A stretch of DNA of 64,000 nucleotides, taken from the NCBI GenBank assembly GCA_021738565.1, contig JAIPBT010000006.1:1-64000 (forward strand), given 5' to 3'. A model generated the notes under the pieces. The model was given only the letters and a program-made list of their open reading frames with translations. It was not told the DNA's origin and searched no databases. This DNA comes from Bacteroidales bacterium. Lineage in GTDB: Bacteria; Bacteroidota; Bacteroidia; Bacteroidales; GCA-2748055. The position numbers and the translations under genes are program-made. Positions 10,185 through 40,712 of the stretch are shown piece by piece. How positions within the stretch are numbered: position 1 is the stretch's first letter; each line of letters starts with the position of its first letter.

Positions 10185-10754
10185 AGCAAAAGAAAGCTAA
10201 TGTCATGTATGGAATTCAACCGGCAAATTTTAATAAATTCCAACAAATAAATATAATTCATTTTTTATCATTCATCAGATAAATGGAACCGTACACCATA
10301 AAAATCAGGCTATCCATTGATTTTCTGCATGTTATATATGCTACTTCTCTTGACAAGCAAATGATTATATTGTAAATTGAACTACTTTAAGGTCTAACCT
10401 TAGAAGGCTTGCTGTAACTCTCTGACCTGATTTGTTCAGTTAAAATTATTTCAACAGACATTTAATTAACGAGTTTCTGTAAATGTGATAGTGATCGAAT
10501 GGATTGTCGATCATCAATTTTACAACTACAAAGATTGATTGTTGAGATGTTCATTGCCGGAAATATTGAATATATCTGACCCTGCAATGCTTTATCTCTG
10601 TGTGCAACGCTGTAAATATGATGCCGGTCGTACAGGGAACAAGGGCTGACCCCCCTATCAATCATTACCTCAATAATTAAGTGTGGAGTCAGACCCCACG
10701 TTAAAAAACGGGACCATTGCTTTATGGTTAATTTAATATTTAAAAAACTGCATT
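10185..10754. other. Gene-poor spacer
   Basis: About 570 bases without a supported gene. A minus-strand frame (10462-10665) has no family resemblance. Near its end are GGGCTGACCCCCC (about 10644) and the palindrome at 10683, phrases often found in repeat-type mobile sequences. Confidence 0.5.
10683..10699. repeat. REP-like imperfect palindrome
   Basis: GTGGAGTCAGACCCCAC folds as GTGG/CCAC around AGTCAGACC and lies about 56 bases before the LipL32-like gene. The GGAGTCAGACCCC word is common in short dispersed repeats of other genomes. Only one copy is seen here. Confidence 0.3.
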
Positions 10755-11447
10755 ATGAAACATTTATTTAAATTCATTGGATTTGTTCTTATTCTTATAC
10801 TGTCTGCAGGCACGATGGAAGCTCAAAAACTCGGAGCTTTTGGCAGCTCGGTCTCAAAAAAAGTGGGACCCAAGACAATTGCCGTTCCTTATACAGATGT
10901 TATAACCTACCTTGGGTATGCAGCAACAGGAAATGAAGATGCTGTAGTGGACGGTAAAAAATTTTACTATATCTATGTCTGGATACCTGCTGTGGCCCCC
11001 GAATTGGGTGTTCGTATGATGTCCCCGGTGGGCAAGACTAAAGTTAAAAAACCAATTGAATCACAGGCATATCTCGACAACAAGGACTCGGAAGATTATT
11101 TTGATACCTACATCACACTGGAAAGATCCGACATCGTTCAGAAGGATAAGATCTCGGAGGAAGCGGTTGAAAATGCCAACTGGTATATCCTGGCCCGGAA
11201 CGACGACAGCGGTGAGATGCCCGCGAACCCGGGAGGAAGTAAGTACAATTCATTGCTCAGGTACAAGAGTGAGGCAAGTGATCCCTTAAAGGCCCTTACA
11301 ATTGGATTGTACCGTATTGGGTTTACTACTTACAAGCGGGGTGAAGTAAGCGGCACTTTCCTTGCAGAAGTTGCTGCGCCGATAAAATTGCCCGGCGTGG
11401 CAGTTGCGAAGACTATACCTGAATTGCTGGAGCAGATGAGTGAATAA
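10755..11447 (+). CDS. LipL32-like exported surface protein
   Basis: The 230-residue product has a signal peptide (about residues 1-24, ending GTMEAQ). The mature part matches, block by block, the major leptospiral surface lipoprotein LipL32 as I recall its sequence: VDGKKFYYIYVWIPAVAPELGVRMMSP, YFDTYITLER, KYNSLLRYK and GLYRIGFTTYKRGEVSGTF (quoted blocks, shortest cores IYVWIPAV and GLYRIGFTTYK). LipL32 is a jelly-roll protein that binds calcium and host matrix proteins. Here the acylated cysteine is missing, so it is probably periplasmic or secreted rather than a lipoprotein. The polyacidic loop of the leptospiral protein is absent. It appears monocistronic, with a terminator after it. Confidence 0.8.
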   Translation: MKHLFKFIGFVLILILSAGTMEAQKLGAFGSSVSKKVGPKTIAVPYTDVITYLGYAATGNEDAVVDGKKFYYIYVWIPAVAPELGVRMMSPVGKTKVKKPIESQAYLDNKDSEDYFDTYITLERSDIVQKDKISEEAVENANWYILARNDDSGEMPANPGGSKYNSLLRYKSEASDPLKALTIGLYRIGFTTYKRGEVSGTFLAEVAAPIKLPGVAVAKTIPELLEQMSE

Positions 11448-11704: not shown

Positions 11705-13453
11705 ATGTTAGTCGATTTTACGTATTTTAAGATCAAGCTTCGCCCTGTCCCCTTTACCACTGGTGCAGGAAAAAAATTTGAAACAACAACCTGCATCTCA
11801 TTTTTTGACGATTCCAATAAAGAACTTGCTTACCATGAGCTTGCATTTTGTGATGCAGAAGATATTTATAAAGCCATTGAAGCCGGTGATGACATCAACC
11901 TTGATGAATGTTACATCGAAAACTTTTCATTGTCCTTATTTCGAAAGTCCAGGAAATTAAAAGGTGAAACAGAGATCACACTGAATAACTTCAGTGCCCG
12001 CGGAACATTTTTTGATTCAAAAATAGCAACCGATTTCTCACTGGCACACTTTAAAGGAGAAGAAATCTCTTTTAAAAACAGCCGTTTCATTCATGGAACT
12101 ACATCCTTCCATAAGTCCCACTTTGAGGGAAACGGCAAGGATTTCTCCAATGTGATCTTTAAGAATGGTGAGGTCGATTTTTCCAATGCATTGTTTTATC
12201 CCGGAAATGTTACATTCAAAAACTCAGTATTCTTTGATGGCATTAAAAATTTTCAGTATACTGAATTTGATTCCGGAAACGTGGAATTCAGTTATACTCG
12301 CTTCAACAAAGGAGATGTCAATTTTATAAATACAAATTTCGGAACCGGGAATACTTCATTTAAGGGAGCACAGTTCGGGGCCGGGAAAATAGAGTTCCAG
12401 TTTGCAAGGTTTGGTGACGGAGACATTTCATTTGAGCGAACTGAATTTGGTGACGGGAAGGTTGATTTCCGCAAAGTCGAATTTGGCACGGGAAAGATCA
12501 ATTTTAACCGTGCATTGTTCGGGAATGGAGATGTAACCTTTGAAGAAAGTGAACTCCATGAGAGCAGGATTACCTTCAAAAAGACTAATTTCAGTGTCGG
12601 CGACATACATTTTGAAGAGGCAAACTACAAAACTTCGGAAGTATTGCTCGAAAACGCACAGTTTGACGATTGCAACCTGTTCTTTTCAAAATCATCATTC
12701 AAAAAGCTTAGCCTCATATCCTGCCATCTCGATCAATATGTTGATCTCAGGGTACTTTACTGCGAATACCTTGATCTGTCTGATACGATCACCAGGGACA
12801 TCGTTGATTTTTCCTCCTACGATCACAATGTCGAAATACATTGTCTGAACCTTGCCGGCATGCGTCTGCTTGGCCAGATATACATCGACTGGAACGAGAA
12901 CAGGGTAAAAGAGATCATCAGCCGTCAGCAAACAACTACGCATGCTGAAAAATCCGAACAATTCAGGATCCTTAAAGAAAATTACGGACGTATTGGCAAT
13001 TACAAGTCTGAAGACCTCGCGTACATTCAATTTAAAAGGAACGAACAAAAAGCAGACCTTGAAAAAGCACTTAAGAAATCCAAATTAAGTGCATTATGGC
13101 AACTGCCCCTGTTTGGATTTAAATTTTTGGTCATAGATCGCATGGGACTATATGCAACCAGTCCACTGCGGGTTATTACCAGCCTTATCTTGATCTATTT
13201 TACCTTTAGTATAATTCATTTTGCATGCCCGTTTCTTATGAACACCAGCATCTCCTGTATTCCGACAGACGGCACATTCTATGAAAAGATTTTGAATACC
13301 TTCTATTACAGTTTAATAACATTCACAACGGTAGGTTACGGAGACTGTGTTCCAACTGGATTTCTTCGCTCCATCGCAGCCATAGAAGGATTTATAGGCC
13401 CTTTTATGATGTCCTATTTCACCGTTGCATTTGCAAGAAAAGTGCTCAGGTAA
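11705..13453 (+). CDS. Potassium channel with N-terminal 12-residue repeat beta-helix
   Basis: The 582-residue protein has no signal peptide. From about residue 111 to 320 it repeats every 12 residues: Phe at 111, 123, 135 and so on to 303, a second Phe five residues after most of these, and Gly at 155, 167 and so on to 275. This resembles a pentapeptide-type right-handed beta-helix but with a 5+7 register. The C-terminus is a two-helix channel: a first membrane segment (about 488-509), a pore loop with the selectivity filter TTVGYGD (541-547) and a second helix (about 555-577). By homology it conducts potassium across the inner membrane. The repeat domain would sit in the cytoplasm and may gate or bind a ligand; that is inference. 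Confidence 0.88.
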   Translation: MLVDFTYFKIKLRPVPFTTGAGKKFETTTCISFFDDSNKELAYHELAFCDAEDIYKAIEAGDDINLDECYIENFSLSLFRKSRKLKGETEITLNNFSARGTFFDSKIATDFSLAHFKGEEISFKNSRFIHGTTSFHKSHFEGNGKDFSNVIFKNGEVDFSNALFYPGNVTFKNSVFFDGIKNFQYTEFDSGNVEFSYTRFNKGDVNFINTNFGTGNTSFKGAQFGAGKIEFQFARFGDGDISFERTEFGDGKVDFRKVEFGTGKINFNRALFGNGDVTFEESELHESRITFKKTNFSVGDIHFEEANYKTSEVLLENAQFDDCNLFFSKSSFKKLSLISCHLDQYVDLRVLYCEYLDLSDTITRDIVDFSSYDHNVEIHCLNLAGMRLLGQIYIDWNENRVKEIISRQQTTTHAEKSEQFRILKENYGRIGNYKSEDLAYIQFKRNEQKADLEKALKKSKLSALWQLPLFGFKFLVIDRMGLYATSPLRVITSLILIYFTFSIIHFACPFLMNTSISCIPTDGTFYEKILNTFYYSLITFTTVGYGDCVPTGFLRSIAAIEGFIGPFMMSYFTVAFARKVLR

Positions 13454-22908: not shown

Positions 22909-23613
22909 TCAGTCAAAGAAATCCTCCAATTGCCGCACAAAATATCCGAGGCTTGACATCGTTTCTGAAAGTTTATGTGTGAAAAAATCAAAGTCAAGTT
23001 TGCTAACAATGCTGTTTATCTTGTTCCGTTTTTTAATATAATCATGGTTAACCAGTCTGTACACATGTTTAAGATCAAATGCCGGCGCTTCTCTTAGCTC
23101 CATATTATCACGGCGCGGATTGAATCCAAGCTGGCTCTCAATATATTCCGGGGTAAGTTTTGAAGACACTTTCAAAAAATGCCTGTATTCTCCAAGGAAC
23201 CAGGCTTCAGTTTCCATCACTGCAAGAAAAATATGTGTCACGGCACCCTTTTGCGACAGCTGGTAATTCAAACCCTTTTTTAATTTCGGTATCTGATCGT
23301 GGGTAAAATTGGGATAAACATCCCTCAAACCGATAATACATGTGTATCCCTTATCAAGCAAGCTTTGCCGCTGGGCAAGCATGTAGCTCTTTACATTTGT
23401 TTCTCCGCCGCAATCATAAATGAGTACATAAAAGTCCGCTTCCCTTTTTGTTTGTGCTGCATGCAATACGGTGAACGACATGCGCACATTGTGCCCCCCA
23501 GTTATCCTCATCGTCTGTATAGCAATGTTCTTTTTCGCCATGACAGTCTCCAGCATTCTTCTAACCAGTATCTGTTCAGTTTGTCCTTCTACAAATATGG
23601 CGATTCGCTTCAT
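22909..23613 (-). CDS. TOPRIM-like (DUF4276-type) putative nuclease
   Basis: The 234-residue protein begins MKRIAIFVEGQTEQ, in which Glu9 is the likely TOPRIM glutamate. FYVLIYDCGG gives an acidic residue at 67, and METEAWFLGEY (about 133-143) resembles the ETEAW motif of DUF4276 proteins. The pattern fits a single-domain TOPRIM nuclease. Its start codon overlaps the stop codon of the AAA ATPase gene (ATGA), so the two are translationally coupled. ATPase plus TOPRIM pairs of this kind include the phage-defence effectors PARIS and OLD/Gabija-type systems; membership in any of these is inference. Confidence 0.65.
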   Translation of the reverse strand: MKRIAIFVEGQTEQILVRRMLETVMAKKNIAIQTMRITGGHNVRMSFTVLHAAQTKREADFYVLIYDCGGETNVKSYMLAQRQSLLDKGYTCIIGLRDVYPNFTHDQIPKLKKGLNYQLSQKGAVTHIFLAVMETEAWFLGEYRHFLKVSSKLTPEYIESQLGFNPRRDNMELREAPAFDLKHVYRLVNHDYIKKRNKINSIVSKLDFDFFTHKLSETMSSLGYFVRQLEDFFD

Positions 23614-24758
23614 TCAGAGTTATCTTTGAATCCGGTTTTAAAAAACTCACTGGCATAAAAATCGAAATTGTTCAAACCGGTGTATTTGAACTCCTCAAAG
23701 ATTTCTCTGGAATTTTCATAATTGTATAAACTGATCTTATTCCCTTCCCTGTGCAGTACTGCCCAGTTTTCAATATTCACGGTATTCATGATAAAGGAAT
23801 CGTTCGTTGACATGATCAACTGGATCCCTGATGACTCTGCTTTTTTAATGAGCAGGTTGACAAGCAGTTTGGCCCTTGAAAAATCAATTCCTTCACCAAT
23901 ATCATCAATAACTACGCAGCCAGTTTTACCTTTAAGGATGTACCTGTTCAGCCTGGCGATAACACTGAATGCCCGGAACATTCCCTGTGACATGTCATGC
24001 TGGGCCACCTGTTTTTCCAATCCTGATTCGGTTGTATAGACTGCATAACGATCCTGCTTATTGCGGCTGTTCTTGTCCGAGAATTGCATTATCCCGAGAT
24101 CCTCAAGCTGGTAACCGATCTCATTCATATCCTGAATTAGTTGTTCCCTGTAACCTTTAAACTGCTCCATGGCCAGGTAAAGCAATGGCACAAGGGAAGT
24201 ATCTGCATTGCGGAAATTGACTTCATCTTCTTCAAAGACTGCCTTCAAGGAGTAGCTGTTCTTCCCCAGGTCACCACTGAAATTAAACCTACGCATGTCT
24301 ATGGCCCAAAAATAAATCTGTTCAAGGTAAGGATGCTGTTTCTTGTCCCGCTTTGCAAAACAGGCCATCTGGTTCAGTGATATTGCAAATTCAAGGGACA
24401 AACTTTCCTTACCGCCCATGTATATAATCCAGCCAGATCCGTCCTTTCCGCGTTCAAGCACCTTTTCTCCATCCCAGGTCAGCATCTCATTAAGGATTAT
24501 ACCGCCGTCATATTCAAATTCAAGAAGTACCTCCTTTTCATCATGAATAAAAGTCGCCCTGTATTTTCCATGGACCTTGGGTATAAAAGATCCTCCGGTC
24601 AGCATATCAACCATGTCGTCAATGGCATTCAGTGTCCTTGTCTTACCACTGGAGTTCTGTCCCACGATCAGGTTGATCTTACCAAGGTGAACGTTGTCGA
24701 TCAGCCATTCGATCTTCTTACCCTCGTTTTCCCGGAATGTTAATTTGCGCAGATACAT
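23610..24758 (-). CDS. AAA/ABC-type ATPase partner of TOPRIM-like protein
   Basis: The 382-residue ATPase has Walker A GQNSSGKT (33-40), an ABC-signature-like segment DMSQGMFRAF (255-264), Walker B CVVIDDIGEG (281-290, catalytic Glu289) and an STND switch (317-320), the order seen in AAA_15/AAA_21 SMC-like ATPases. There is no long coiled-coil insertion, so the head domains may dimerise directly. Fusion or coupling with a TOPRIM nuclease is typical of OLD-family defence proteins; here the nuclease is a separate coupled gene. It could also be a housekeeping DNA-repair ATPase. It is located between the gyrB region and an outer-membrane protein gene. Confidence 0.75.
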   Translation of the reverse strand: MYLRKLTFRENEGKKIEWLIDNVHLGKINLIVGQNSSGKTRTLNAIDDMVDMLTGGSFIPKVHGKYRATFIHDEKEVLLEFEYDGGIILNEMLTWDGEKVLERGKDGSGWIIYMGGKESLSLEFAISLNQMACFAKRDKKQHPYLEQIYFWAIDMRRFNFSGDLGKNSYSLKAVFEEDEVNFRNADTSLVPLLYLAMEQFKGYREQLIQDMNEIGYQLEDLGIMQFSDKNSRNKQDRYAVYTTESGLEKQVAQHDMSQGMFRAFSVIARLNRYILKGKTGCVVIDDIGEGIDFSRAKLLVNLLIKKAESSGIQLIMSTNDSFIMNTVNIENWAVLHREGNKISLYNYENSREIFEEFKYTGLNNFDFYASEFFKTGFKDNSE

Positions 24759-36308: not shown

Positions 36309-39300
36309 ATGGATGACATGCATTATCACCGATTGATTTTCCCACTGATCACCGTATTGGTATTTATTCCCCGGATATCCACAGCCCAACCTACTGATCA
36401 AATGGCAGAAGAAGCCTTGACTAAACAAAAATACAGGGCGAGGATTGTTGATTTCGGTTCTGATCACGGATCAGGATTTTACAGGGATACTCCCGGCACG
36501 AGGCACAGTGAAGTGAAGATCGATGTTGACGGTGACGGCAGCACCAGTGATGACGGTGTGGCTTTCTGGAAATTCAGCCTGGATGAGCCCATGAATCCCT
36601 CACCAATTCACTATGATATATACGCACCAAGTGCAATTTATTTCGGTGGTATTACAGGATATTTTGATAAGCCTGACCAGCAGCTTACGGAGGGATTGAT
36701 CAATGAAAACCATGAATTGAGGGACGACCAGAACATGATGTCCGTTCATTCAGATGTATCCCTGAATAAAAAAGCCTACGGCCTCTGGTACTGGAAAAAA
36801 GAACATTTCCTGAATGGCGGTAATGCTGATTCGAATCATGTTTCTTTCGATGATGAAAGCCTGATTGCTGTGCACATCTCCAGGTACTGGAGCGGCATCG
36901 AAGGAGGAAGGTTCATTGTAAGTGATAATGGCCGGTTTTACATCTCAGAAGTGATCTTCGACGGAATAAGGACCTCACATACACTGGTTCCCACCCGGAG
37001 CCGGTGGACTGAATACAACCCCCTGGAACCCTATGATATTGGATTTGATGCTGATGCCGCAAACTGGGAGAACCTGACCTTTGAAGATGTCGATGCAGTA
37101 GGTTTTTATATTTTCAAGGATGCACTCAACAATGTCAATGTGCAGGTAAAATGGCACTCCGTGGAAGTATGGGCGAACATCGAACGGGAACCGACAGCTT
37201 CTTTCCTTCTGGACATGGTCAGTATACCGGCAGGTAATTTTGGAGGTCCGTTAGAGGATTTTTACGTTTCAACCACAGAGGTCCCATACCACACATGGCA
37301 TAAGGTATATAAATGGGCCGTTTCGAACCAGTATTGTTTCGACGTGGCTGATTCGCGCGGTTATGTATTTGAACGGGATGGGGATATGGGATCCATGGAC
37401 CACGGAGAAGGTCCGCACACATCGCTGGAACCTGTGACCGATATATCATGGCTTGATGCTGTATTGTGGTGCAATGCATTGTCGGAATATGAAGGATATC
37501 AACCCTGCTATTACGCTGATCCTAATCTCACAGAGCGCCTAAAAGCTATCCGGAACAGGGATAATCCCTGGGAATACGACCAGACCCATCCTGTATATGT
37601 GGATTTCACAGCAAACGGTTACAGGCTTCCAACAATTTCAGAATGGAGTTACGCTGCCAGTGAAGGGACTGGTTCTGCATCAGCGGATGCCGCCTATGCG
37701 CATACAGGAATGCCCGCCACACAGGAGGTTGGACAGCTTAAACCAAACAACTGGGGCGTTTACGATGCCATTGGGAATGTATGGGAATATACATGGGACA
37801 TTCCGGGAGCGACGGATATGTACGCCCCGGATACAGATACGCTAAGAATTGTAACCGGAGGCGATTTTTTGTCACTTACACCTCCCAGGGAAGCTGCTCT
37901 TCGCTTTGGAGAATACCCTTTCCAAGGACAATACAATATTGGTTTCCGGGTAATGCGCGCTGAAAATGGAACGGTGCCACCCGCAATCAATGATCCGGGC
38001 ACCCTTCCGGTATGGGAGATCAGGAAAGATTCTGTGCTTCACCCTTCCACCCCCGGCGAAAAGACCGACACAATTGCAGCCAGTAAAATGGTTTATCTTT
38101 CCGGCTCCCATGTCTTTGGTTCACCAGCCGATTATTTTTATGAGGATGACAACCTGGGTTACATGCGTGTCGACGGTGCATTTGTAACCATAACTCCTTT
38201 TTACGCTTCTACAACAGAAATCAATTACCATACCTGGAGAGAAATTTACAACTGGGCCGTGTTGAACGGTTATACCTTCGATCGCGACGGGGACATGGGA
38301 TCCATGGACTGGAACGTGTCCCAAATATCCCATAACGGCAATGAACCTGTCACGGATGTCGGATGGAACGATGCGGTTGTCTGGTGCAATGCGCTATCGG
38401 AATACGAAGGTCTGGATCCTGTGTATTTTAAAGATACGACCGGGGAGCGACAGGTCCTGAGGGAAGCCAACCAGTGGCGACTCAGAATGGAACACAGGCC
38501 CGGTTATAATGTTTCGACAACCACACAGTTCATGACCGTAATTCCTGATTTTAGCAAAAACGGGTACAGGCTCCCGACCCTGGCCGAATGGGAGATCATG
38601 GCACGGGCAGGCAATGAAAATGAATATCCCGGGGAGCTGCCGGCTGCCGACTGGTACAGTAGCAATTCGGATGACCGCACGCACAATATAGGTACTTCAG
38701 CCACAAATGGATTCAACATCCATGACCTCGGAGGAAATGTTGAAGAGTGGGTATGGGACTGGGTTAAAATGGATTATTATGTGAGCCATAATCCGAAAGG
38801 ATCCGATGATCCCGATCTGCTGTTCGGAAAGGGAGTTAAAGGATCCTCTTTTGGAGGTGAAAGGACAGGAATCAATAAAACCCGGAAAGAGCGGGAGTCT
38901 GCAGCCCGACCCTATATTGGATTCCGGGTCGTTCGCTGCGACAGCGGAGAGCATCCTGCCAGGGATATTTTTATTCCGGAAGTGATCCTTGAATTTGATC
39001 CTGGTGATTATGACCTACTGGATGGTCAGACTTTCAGAAACAACCTGTTGAGAAACGGGAGTTATGATGTTACCGGAATACAGGAGGGCCCTGTTGAAAT
39101 AAAATGGGAATACAGTACAGGCGGATCAGTGAAGAGCTCCCCGGTAATGGTAGGCGGAACAATCTATGCAGGAAGCAACGACGGCATGGTATACGCCATT
39201 AACGCAGAGACAGGGGAGCTTGAATGGAAATATAACTGTGGGGCCGCCGTGACGGCATCGCCAACTATTGCAGACAGCATCCTTTACATTGGTGACCATT

Positions 39301-40712
39301 CCGGTTATTTTCATGCCATATACACATATGATGACCCTTCTGCAGCAATAGTTGCCGGAGCGGCAAAATGGAAAGTAAGGGCAGCATCGGATCCCATTGA
39401 AAGTACGGCAGCTGTTTTTTATGGAATTGCTGTTACAGGATGGCAGGGTTGGAGCACGAATAATAAATATATAGGATTTGATACAGAGACGGGTCAGGAG
39501 AAATGGCGGTACAGGGGTTACCGCGCAAACGGCGGATTTGGCGGTTTAACGGTCGATACTTTCAATATCTACGCACCTGTAACCGATAATATGTATATGA
39601 GTGCCTCCATTTCAACCGAGATCACTGATTGGAAATCAACCGGAATTCACGGCTACAATTTCTGCCCTGTCATAAACCAGGATCTCGTTCTGTATGCCTG
39701 TGAGAATTTCATACGTGCAAGCAGGCGAAATGACGGATCCACGGCCTGGACCTTTTATAACGGCGACAACACAGACAAGCACCAATTCTCATCTCCGGCT
39801 ATAGGAAGCATTGTTAGCAACGGGAATAATGTCGATGTGGTTTATTATGCCCAGCTTAACGGTACCATAACCTGCCTCAGGGCAATAACCGGAGAGGAAG
39901 TCTGGCGCTCCTCAGGGTTCGGGGCCTTTCTTTCCTCCCCTTCTTATGCGGACAATCGTGTTTTTATAGGCAGCGACGATGGTTTCATCTATGCCTTCAA
40001 TGCAGGGAACGGCAAAGTAGAATGGTCATGGGAAGTCGGTTCACCGGTTATTTCATCGCCATTGCCTTCAGAAGGTGTGATCTGTTTTGGTGCAGATAAT
40101 GGTATGATCTATGCCATTCAGAAAGAGGGTACATTTGTTAACTCTCCTCCGACAGTTGATCCACTCAACGATATTACCCTGACCGCTGATGACAGCCTGC
40201 AGCAATCCATTGCCCTGTCAGGGATCAGCGATGGAAATAACGGCTCACAGGAACTCACCATCACAGCCTCAAGTTCCAATATTGAGGTGGTGGACAACGT
40301 ATATGTGGATTACACTGCCGGCTCGTCAAATGCCACGCTTTATTTCACGCTTCAAAAAGAAGAAGGAACAACCACAATTGAGATCATACTGGATGACGGA
40401 CAGCCTGTTAACAATCGGACATCGATTTCATTTAACGTAACTGTCGGACCTTCAGCAATTAAAAGAATACCGGAAAAGTCATTATCAATCTATCCAAATC
40501 CTGCAAATTCAGAGATAAGGATCATATCGGACGAAGAACCGATAAAAAGAGTTTTTTTAACAGACATGAACGGAAGGATATTGATCATGAAAAGGCCCAT
40601 GTCAAGGGATTTTTTACTGGATCTTCTTGATCTTGCAAGCGGGACCTATTACCTTAAGATCACTTCTGCAGAACAAGTTTATCATGCAAAGATAATAAAA
40701 TCAAAACACTGA
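36309..40712 (+). CDS. Secreted FGE-FGE-PQQ propeller protein with T9SS sorting domain
   Basis: The 1467-residue protein has a signal peptide (about 1-26, ending RISTAQ). An N-terminal jelly-roll-like part (about 45-295) precedes two formylglycine-generating-enzyme/SUMF1-like domains (about 300-552 and 590-885) with paired motifs PVTDISWLDAVLWCNALSEYEG and PVTDVGWNDAVVWCNALSEYEG (core DAVxWCNALSEYEG) and IGNVWEYTWD/LGGNVEEWVWD. A PQQ-type beta-propeller follows (about 915-1280, repeats VYAINAETGELEWKY and IYAFNAGNGKVEWSW), then a cadherin-like module and a type A T9SS sorting domain (from about 1387, IYPNPANSEIRI). Surface-exposed; catalytic cysteines of true FGE are not evident, so the domains may bind rather than oxidise. 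Confidence 0.88.
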   Translation: MDDMHYHRLIFPLITVLVFIPRISTAQPTDQMAEEALTKQKYRARIVDFGSDHGSGFYRDTPGTRHSEVKIDVDGDGSTSDDGVAFWKFSLDEPMNPSPIHYDIYAPSAIYFGGITGYFDKPDQQLTEGLINENHELRDDQNMMSVHSDVSLNKKAYGLWYWKKEHFLNGGNADSNHVSFDDESLIAVHISRYWSGIEGGRFIVSDNGRFYISEVIFDGIRTSHTLVPTRSRWTEYNPLEPYDIGFDADAANWENLTFEDVDAVGFYIFKDALNNVNVQVKWHSVEVWANIEREPTASFLLDMVSIPAGNFGGPLEDFYVSTTEVPYHTWHKVYKWAVSNQYCFDVADSRGYVFERDGDMGSMDHGEGPHTSLEPVTDISWLDAVLWCNALSEYEGYQPCYYADPNLTERLKAIRNRDNPWEYDQTHPVYVDFTANGYRLPTISEWSYAASEGTGSASADAAYAHTGMPATQEVGQLKPNNWGVYDAIGNVWEYTWDIPGATDMYAPDTDTLRIVTGGDFLSLTPPREAALRFGEYPFQGQYNIGFRVMRAENGTVPPAINDPGTLPVWEIRKDSVLHPSTPGEKTDTIAASKMVYLSGSHVFGSPADYFYEDDNLGYMRVDGAFVTITPFYASTTEINYHTWREIYNWAVLNGYTFDRDGDMGSMDWNVSQISHNGNEPVTDVGWNDAVVWCNALSEYEGLDPVYFKDTTGERQVLREANQWRLRMEHRPGYNVSTTTQFMTVIPDFSKNGYRLPTLAEWEIMARAGNENEYPGELPAADWYSSNSDDRTHNIGTSATNGFNIHDLGGNVEEWVWDWVKMDYYVSHNPKGSDDPDLLFGKGVKGSSFGGERTGINKTRKERESAARPYIGFRVVRCDSGEHPARDIFIPEVILEFDPGDYDLLDGQTFRNNLLRNGSYDVTGIQEGPVEIKWEYSTGGSVKSSPVMVGGTIYAGSNDGMVYAINAETGELEWKYNCGAAVTASPTIADSILYIGDHSGYFHAIYTYDDPSAAIVAGAAKWKVRAASDPIESTAAVFYGIAVTGWQGWSTNNKYIGFDTETGQEKWRYRGYRANGGFGGLTVDTFNIYAPVTDNMYMSASISTEITDWKSTGIHGYNFCPVINQDLVLYACENFIRASRRNDGSTAWTFYNGDNTDKHQFSSPAIGSIVSNGNNVDVVYYAQLNGTITCLRAITGEEVWRSSGFGAFLSSPSYADNRVFIGSDDGFIYAFNAGNGKVEWSWEVGSPVISSPLPSEGVICFGADNGMIYAIQKEGTFVNSPPTVDPLNDITLTADDSLQQSIALSGISDGNNGSQELTITASSSNIEVVDNVYVDYTAGSSNATLYFTLQKEEGTTTIEIILDDGQPVNNRTSISFNVTVGPSAIKRIPEKSLSIYPNPANSEIRIISDEEPIKRVFLTDMNGRILIMKRPMSRDFLLDLLDLASGTYYLKITSAEQVYHAKIIKSKH

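Follow-up and report, generated by a model that had tools for sequence, protein, structure and literature searches.

A LipL32-family protein from a Bacteroidales genome lacks a lipobox and retains the five calcium-ligand positions

The 64,000-nucleotide stretch of Bacteroidales contig JAIPBT010000006.1 analyzed here (the window) encodes, at positions 10755–11447 of the + strand, a 230-aa protein which is almost certainly a genuine relative of LipL32, the chief lipoprotein of pathogenic Leptospira, and a member of the PF12103 family. The open reading frame starts with ATG and its 230 residues fill the stretch; the first frame of the reverse complement contains stops. PF12103 (Lipl32) is the single Pfam match of the protein in hmmscan (256.8 bits, E = 1.1e-76, gathering cut-off 25 bits) and spans residues 40–216 of the protein and positions 1–178 of the 179 in the profile. 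The LipL32 core obtains nearly the same score against this profile (256.2 bits). Among the PDB sequences, phmmer matches the LipL32 chains 2zz8, 3frl and 2wfk with E-values from 3e-28 to 4.6e-28, and the only further match has an E-value of 0.93. These values rule out a chance resemblance and bear out the first-pass annotation, which had proposed a LipL32 homologue outside Leptospira from several sequence blocks, all of which are present. The NCBIfam equivalog NF038394 describes LipL32 in the strict sense with a cut-off of 300 bits; the window protein reaches 110.9 bits and three homologues reach 115.2, 118.6 and 144.5 bits. Since the score of the window protein is well below the cut-off, it belongs to PF12103 without being LipL32 in the strict sense.

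The predicted structure points in the same direction. The AlphaFold2 model, for which the window protein was aligned with 29 relatives (29 of 51 representatives), has a pLDDT of 82.0 and a pTM of 0.80. LipL32 chains occupy the top eight rows of the Foldseek search (E = 1.7e-16 to 3.2e-13), followed in row nine by a Thermococcus subtilase (E = 1.5e-3). In VIA-align, calcium-bound LipL32 (2wfk) matches the model with Z = 18.3 over 196 residues (rmsd 3.5, 37% identity), versus Z = 9.3 for the next folds, the C2-like domain of calpain-7 and the Tk-SP subtilase. Of all structure matches, that of LipL32 alone stands out, and judging from the model the window protein is a LipL32 jelly roll, as had been suggested from the sequence. 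Neither a missing profile match nor a different fold, the outcomes named beforehand as speaking against the relationship, was found.

LipL32 carries its lipid anchor at the lipobox cysteine Cys20 (PMC5566480). In the window protein, the signal region comprises residues 1–24 (10755–10826, + strand; putative cleavage site), is hydrophobic and terminates in MEAQ-KL, without a lipobox. No cysteine is present in residues 1–45, in agreement with the earlier observation that the lipobox cysteine is absent. The pattern is missing from the first 45 residues of all homologues checked (0/91), and the signal ends in 'AQ' in every one of them (91/91); the 91 proteins are those left of 93 after removal of two without a usable start, the protein of L006 and a copy from L030. 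The lipobox test was a regular expression rather than a trained predictor, and for a few rows the start that was chosen precedes the likely one. The lipobox-less proteins include those of three Formosa loci (L045, L055 and L065), and Formosa is one of the genera listed with LipL32 orthologues in PMC4080168. On the sequence evidence, the absence of a lipobox is a group property of the close homologues checked. A mis-called start, with the real signal carrying a lipobox and making the protein a lipoprotein, is an explanation for which the family name alone speaks. We give it negligible probability and reject it, since the reading frame continues upstream of the ATG for just six codons before it meets a stop, the N-terminus is free of cysteines and the homologues agree.

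The calcium ligands of LipL32 are Asp132, Thr133, Asp164, Asp165 and Tyr178 (PMC5566480). Their equivalents in the window protein are D117-T118 (11103–11108), D150-D151 (11202–11207) and Y164 (11244–11246), all on the + strand. All five are invariant in the 93 aligned proteins from 84 loci (L001–L084), the window copy included, so that a loss of the calcium positions is ruled out. Homologues were collected with a motif filter that required DT[WY] and F[TS]T[YF][KR] and could have biased the count for Asp132-Thr133; however, an unfiltered BLAST clustering of open reading frames (94 members, 84 loci) has no member without these motifs, so the filter did not create the invariance. The first-pass annotation had described the acidic calcium loop as shorter than in LipL32. 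This is wrong, because 12 residues separate the equivalents of Asp165 and Tyr178 in LipL32 and in 93/93 homologues alike. The loop is merely less acidic, with three (39 proteins) or four (54 proteins) acidic residues versus nine in LipL32. A real difference in length lies elsewhere: the segment between KYNSLxR and GLYRI has 15 residues in 93/93 homologues versus 25 in LipL32. The poly-Asp loop and the longer segment preceding GLYRI, both traits of strict LipL32, are thus absent from the window protein. At this level of comparison, a weakened calcium site in the window protein is not supported. In the model, the calcium-loop block (residues 151–160) has a pLDDT of 54 and is the least certain part beyond residue 20.

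In addition to the profile family, the jelly-roll fold and the five ligand positions, the window protein shares with LipL32 of Leptospira interrogans the blocks YVWIPAV, GVRM, KYNSL, GLYRIxFTTYK and GEVxGxF. The two proteins are 43% identical by sequence alignment and 32–37% by structure alignments, and differ in the lipobox, the acidity of the equal-length loop and the ten residues by which the pre-GLYRI segment is shorter in the window protein. A second characterized member of the family is PtlL32 of the environmental bacterium Pseudoalteromonas tunicata, which is reported to be 47% identical to LipL32, grouped with Leptospira in the published tree and was tested for a role in attachment (PMC4080168). 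PtlL32 is called a lipoprotein in that paper, whose main text mentions neither 'lipobox' nor 'signal peptide'. The occurrence of LipL32-family proteins outside Leptospira is therein already in print since 2014, with orthologues in three Bacteroidetes genera, Cellulophaga, Formosa and Ulvibacter, and with the proposal that Leptospira obtained the gene from environmental bacteria (PMC4080168). In the open-licence literature searched, we found no print report of the uniform lack of a lipobox combined with invariant calcium positions. Relatives from Aquimarina, Formosa, Nonlabens, Labilibaculum and other taxa (29 aligned) are 63–73% identical to the window protein and share with it the AQ signal end, the missing lipobox and the calcium positions. 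That these relatives lack the anchor yet always keep the calcium positions suggests that the calcium-binding jelly roll, rather than surface display, is what has been conserved.

The family is patchily distributed, as indicated by the few matches in our genome draws and in agreement with what is described in PMC4080168. The genome under study (98.47% complete) encodes one copy and is the only one with a match among 28 genomes of its family; the other three genomes of the genus, one of which is 68% complete, have none. An even draw from the same order yielded matches in 9 of 393 genomes, our genome included, whereas the draw from the phylum yielded 1 of 395, again our genome. For the order of an Aquimarina locus, the corresponding figure is 2/395, one of the two being the centre genome, and the 14 control genomes gave no LipL32-family match in any draw. 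A pattern scan of the genome contig collection recovered 184 relatives, the best 80 of which were kept and correspond to 75 loci; the patterns favor close relatives, and more distant members are expected among the 104 beyond the best 80. These 75 loci are titled Bacteroidota, with the exception of one Chlorobiota and one 'bacterium', and many of the relatives among the best 80 bear marine or alga-related names. At least two LipL32-family copies are present in ten Aquimarina loci (L013, L014, L015, L025, L026, L028, L029, L030, L034 and L041), within fetched stretches of up to ~12.7 kb. No relative was found in two pattern scans of viral contigs or in searches of plasmids and of phages at E = 1e-5, and a phage- or plasmid-borne gene accordingly has no support.

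The closest sequences to the window protein, among the best 80 of 184 relatives, are those of Aquimarina, at about 71–77% over the best segment, whereas the eight homologues from the same order reach 47–55%. In a tree with LipL32 as the outgroup, the window gene groups with 53 mostly flavobacterial rows, and a branch of 1.38 (100/100) separates this set from the eight same-order sequences (L002–L009); the bootstrap of this tree had not converged, and the PDB core was its sole Leptospira sequence. The same split is recovered with 100/100 when LipL32 is omitted. The LipL32-family sequences considered here therefore likely fall into two subfamilies. The same-order one may be nearer to LipL32 than that of the window gene, judging from the single member scored, L005, which obtains 144.5 bits versus 110.9 bits on NF038394. 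It is plausible that the family is older and that LipL32 is a specialized branch of it. The tree itself gives no direction of descent, because the LipL32 branch is long (5.07, flagged for long-branch joining) and no sequence from outside the family roots it.

The sequence similarities and the position of the window gene across the 1.38 branch, together with the match in 1/28 genomes of the family and in none of the three other members of the genus, would be explained if the gene had been acquired horizontally, not necessarily recently, from a flavobacterial line and persisted as a stand-alone accessory gene. We regard this scenario, which concerns origin and is compatible with the functional explanation given below, as possible but short of probable. 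The nearest tree partners of the window gene, L031 and L066, are tied to it weakly (95/51), and no starred set of at most half of the rows contains the window gene, whether LipL32 is included or not. Neither a constrained placement with the eight same-order rows (p-AU 0.428) nor one with Labilibaculum (p-AU 0.388) is rejected. The composition of the gene is host-like, with a GC3 of 0.459 against 0.41–0.52 for most genes of the window, arguing against recent transfer from a donor of different composition. An empty insertion site was not found in the same genus, where the best match of the neighbouring gene lies in another setting.

The window gene has no second copy in its genome and stands isolated. 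Upstream of it lies a gene whose 193-aa product matches no Pfam family, and downstream follow genes for a 582-aa protein that carries an ion-channel domain at its C-terminus, for an esterase and for a WbsX-type protein; none of these clusters with the families that recur around the relatives of the LipL32-family gene. The 582-aa protein (11705–13453) contains, by eye, many short degenerate repeats followed by the C-terminal Ion_trans_2 domain; no DNA tandem repeat was found in its gene, and a 44% homologue occurs in a genome of the same genus in a different gene setting. A short inverted repeat with a terminator-like flag (GTGGGGTCTGACTCCAC on the − strand) is located at 10683–10699, 55 bases upstream of the LipL32-family gene. 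A 12-base pattern built post hoc from it has a single occurrence in the window, where 0.02 are expected; a 15-base pattern from the same repeat has one in the genome. Elsewhere in the window, positions 22909–24758 encode an overlapping pair of an ATPase (AAA_21) and a DUF4276/TOPRIM-like protein, beside a gene which we take to be gyrB-like. In PADLOC, the ATPase is matched best by AriA and AbiLi and its partner by HEC-01B, with weak to moderate scores, making the two a candidate defence pair. A 1467-aa protein encoded at 36309–40712 carries a type IX secretion tail together with two FGE-sulfatase-type stretches and stretches of the PQQ beta-propeller type.

The surroundings of the relatives are more informative. 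We compared 84 loci with flanks, namely L010–L084, L088–L091, L093–L096 and the window, excluding L092, L085 and the short loci L001–L009, L086 and L087; this set is not identical to the 84 loci of the calcium-site alignment. Four families recur near the LipL32-family gene: a 140-aa small membrane-type protein (F1) in 46 loci, a TPR histidine kinase (F2) and a LuxR-type response regulator (F3) in 31 loci each, and a SIMPL protein (F4) in 27; these counts overstate independence, because many of the loci are from close Aquimarina relatives and some lie on one contig or overlap. F1 looks like a membrane protein; one of its members matches DUF4149 below the cut-off and another matches nothing. All 27 SIMPL genes are on the same strand as the LipL32-family gene and less than 400 bases upstream, with a median gap of 45 bases. 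The four families occur together in 16 loci and at least one of them in 50. The remaining 34, in some of which the flanks end at contig ends, have none; among them are the window and every one of the seven same-order loci for which flanks are available (L088–L091 and L093–L095). In the Cyclobacteriaceae loci L052 and L061, the kinase and regulator genes are arranged divergently and are followed by F1; that the same genes are kept in another arrangement speaks for a functional tie. A band-7 (SPFH) protein recurs as well in Aquimarina loci. The genome under study has no match to F1, in a search run without a positive control, and none to SIMPL, in a search that matched 7 of the 14 control genomes. 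This neighbourhood is possibly new, as no print report of it was found in the open-licence literature searched.

We propose that the window protein is exported and acts in the cell envelope, by default in the periplasm, as a jelly-roll protein that binds calcium; placement and role taken jointly, the chances for and against this proposal appear evenly balanced. The protein would use the Sec route across the inner membrane, lose its signal near 'AQ', fold around one calcium ion and act as a soluble or peripherally bound envelope protein. The periplasm is the default place because no type IX secretion tail model from Pfam or NCBIfam matched the protein at E-values up to 1. In many flavobacterial and the two cyclobacterial relatives, the gene would probably serve a regulated envelope response, since a kinase, a LuxR-type regulator, a membrane protein and sometimes SIMPL adjoin it; the window copy would have lost the kinase/regulator setting or never had it. 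Against this proposal stand the 34 loci without any of the four families, the missing F1 and SIMPL matches in the genome under study, the low model confidence of the calcium loop, and the fact that PtlL32, a non-Leptospira orthologue with a known phenotype, is described as acting in attachment (PMC4080168). The last of these raises the alternative of a secreted or surface adhesin, in which a calcium-stabilized jelly roll would bind a collagen-like matrix or polysaccharides, those of algae among them, by analogy with PtlL32, a reading that we consider rather unlikely. Deletion of PtlL32 is reported to lower Matrigel binding ten-fold, restored in trans, and to reduce attachment to Ulva (PMC4080168), and many of the relatives are named for marine or algal sources. 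Clostridial collagen-binding domains are among the structural neighbours of the model, at Z = 6.8–7.3, a range permitting no more than a common arrangement. However, a surface route is not evident, since neither a lipobox nor a type IX sorting tail was matched; moreover, LipL32 itself has been found to be subsurface and a lipL32 transposon mutant is reported to be equally adherent (PMC3544172). The subsurface location argued there for LipL32 fits the shared envelope role that we prefer.

Extended to the family as a whole, the envelope reading would imply that the ancestral and more widespread form is soluble, non-lipidated and calcium-binding, that it works in part of the Bacteroidota as a module with the TPR kinase/LuxR-type regulator, the small membrane protein and SIMPL, that the Leptospira line gained lipidation, its poly-Asp loop and the additional segment late, and that the core function of LipL32 lies in the envelope and not in adhesion. 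We regard this scenario as unlikely at present. The finding is a modest extension of the known LipL32 family, and the kinase/regulator/SIMPL neighbourhood provides a testable lead to its core function in marine environmental bacteria.
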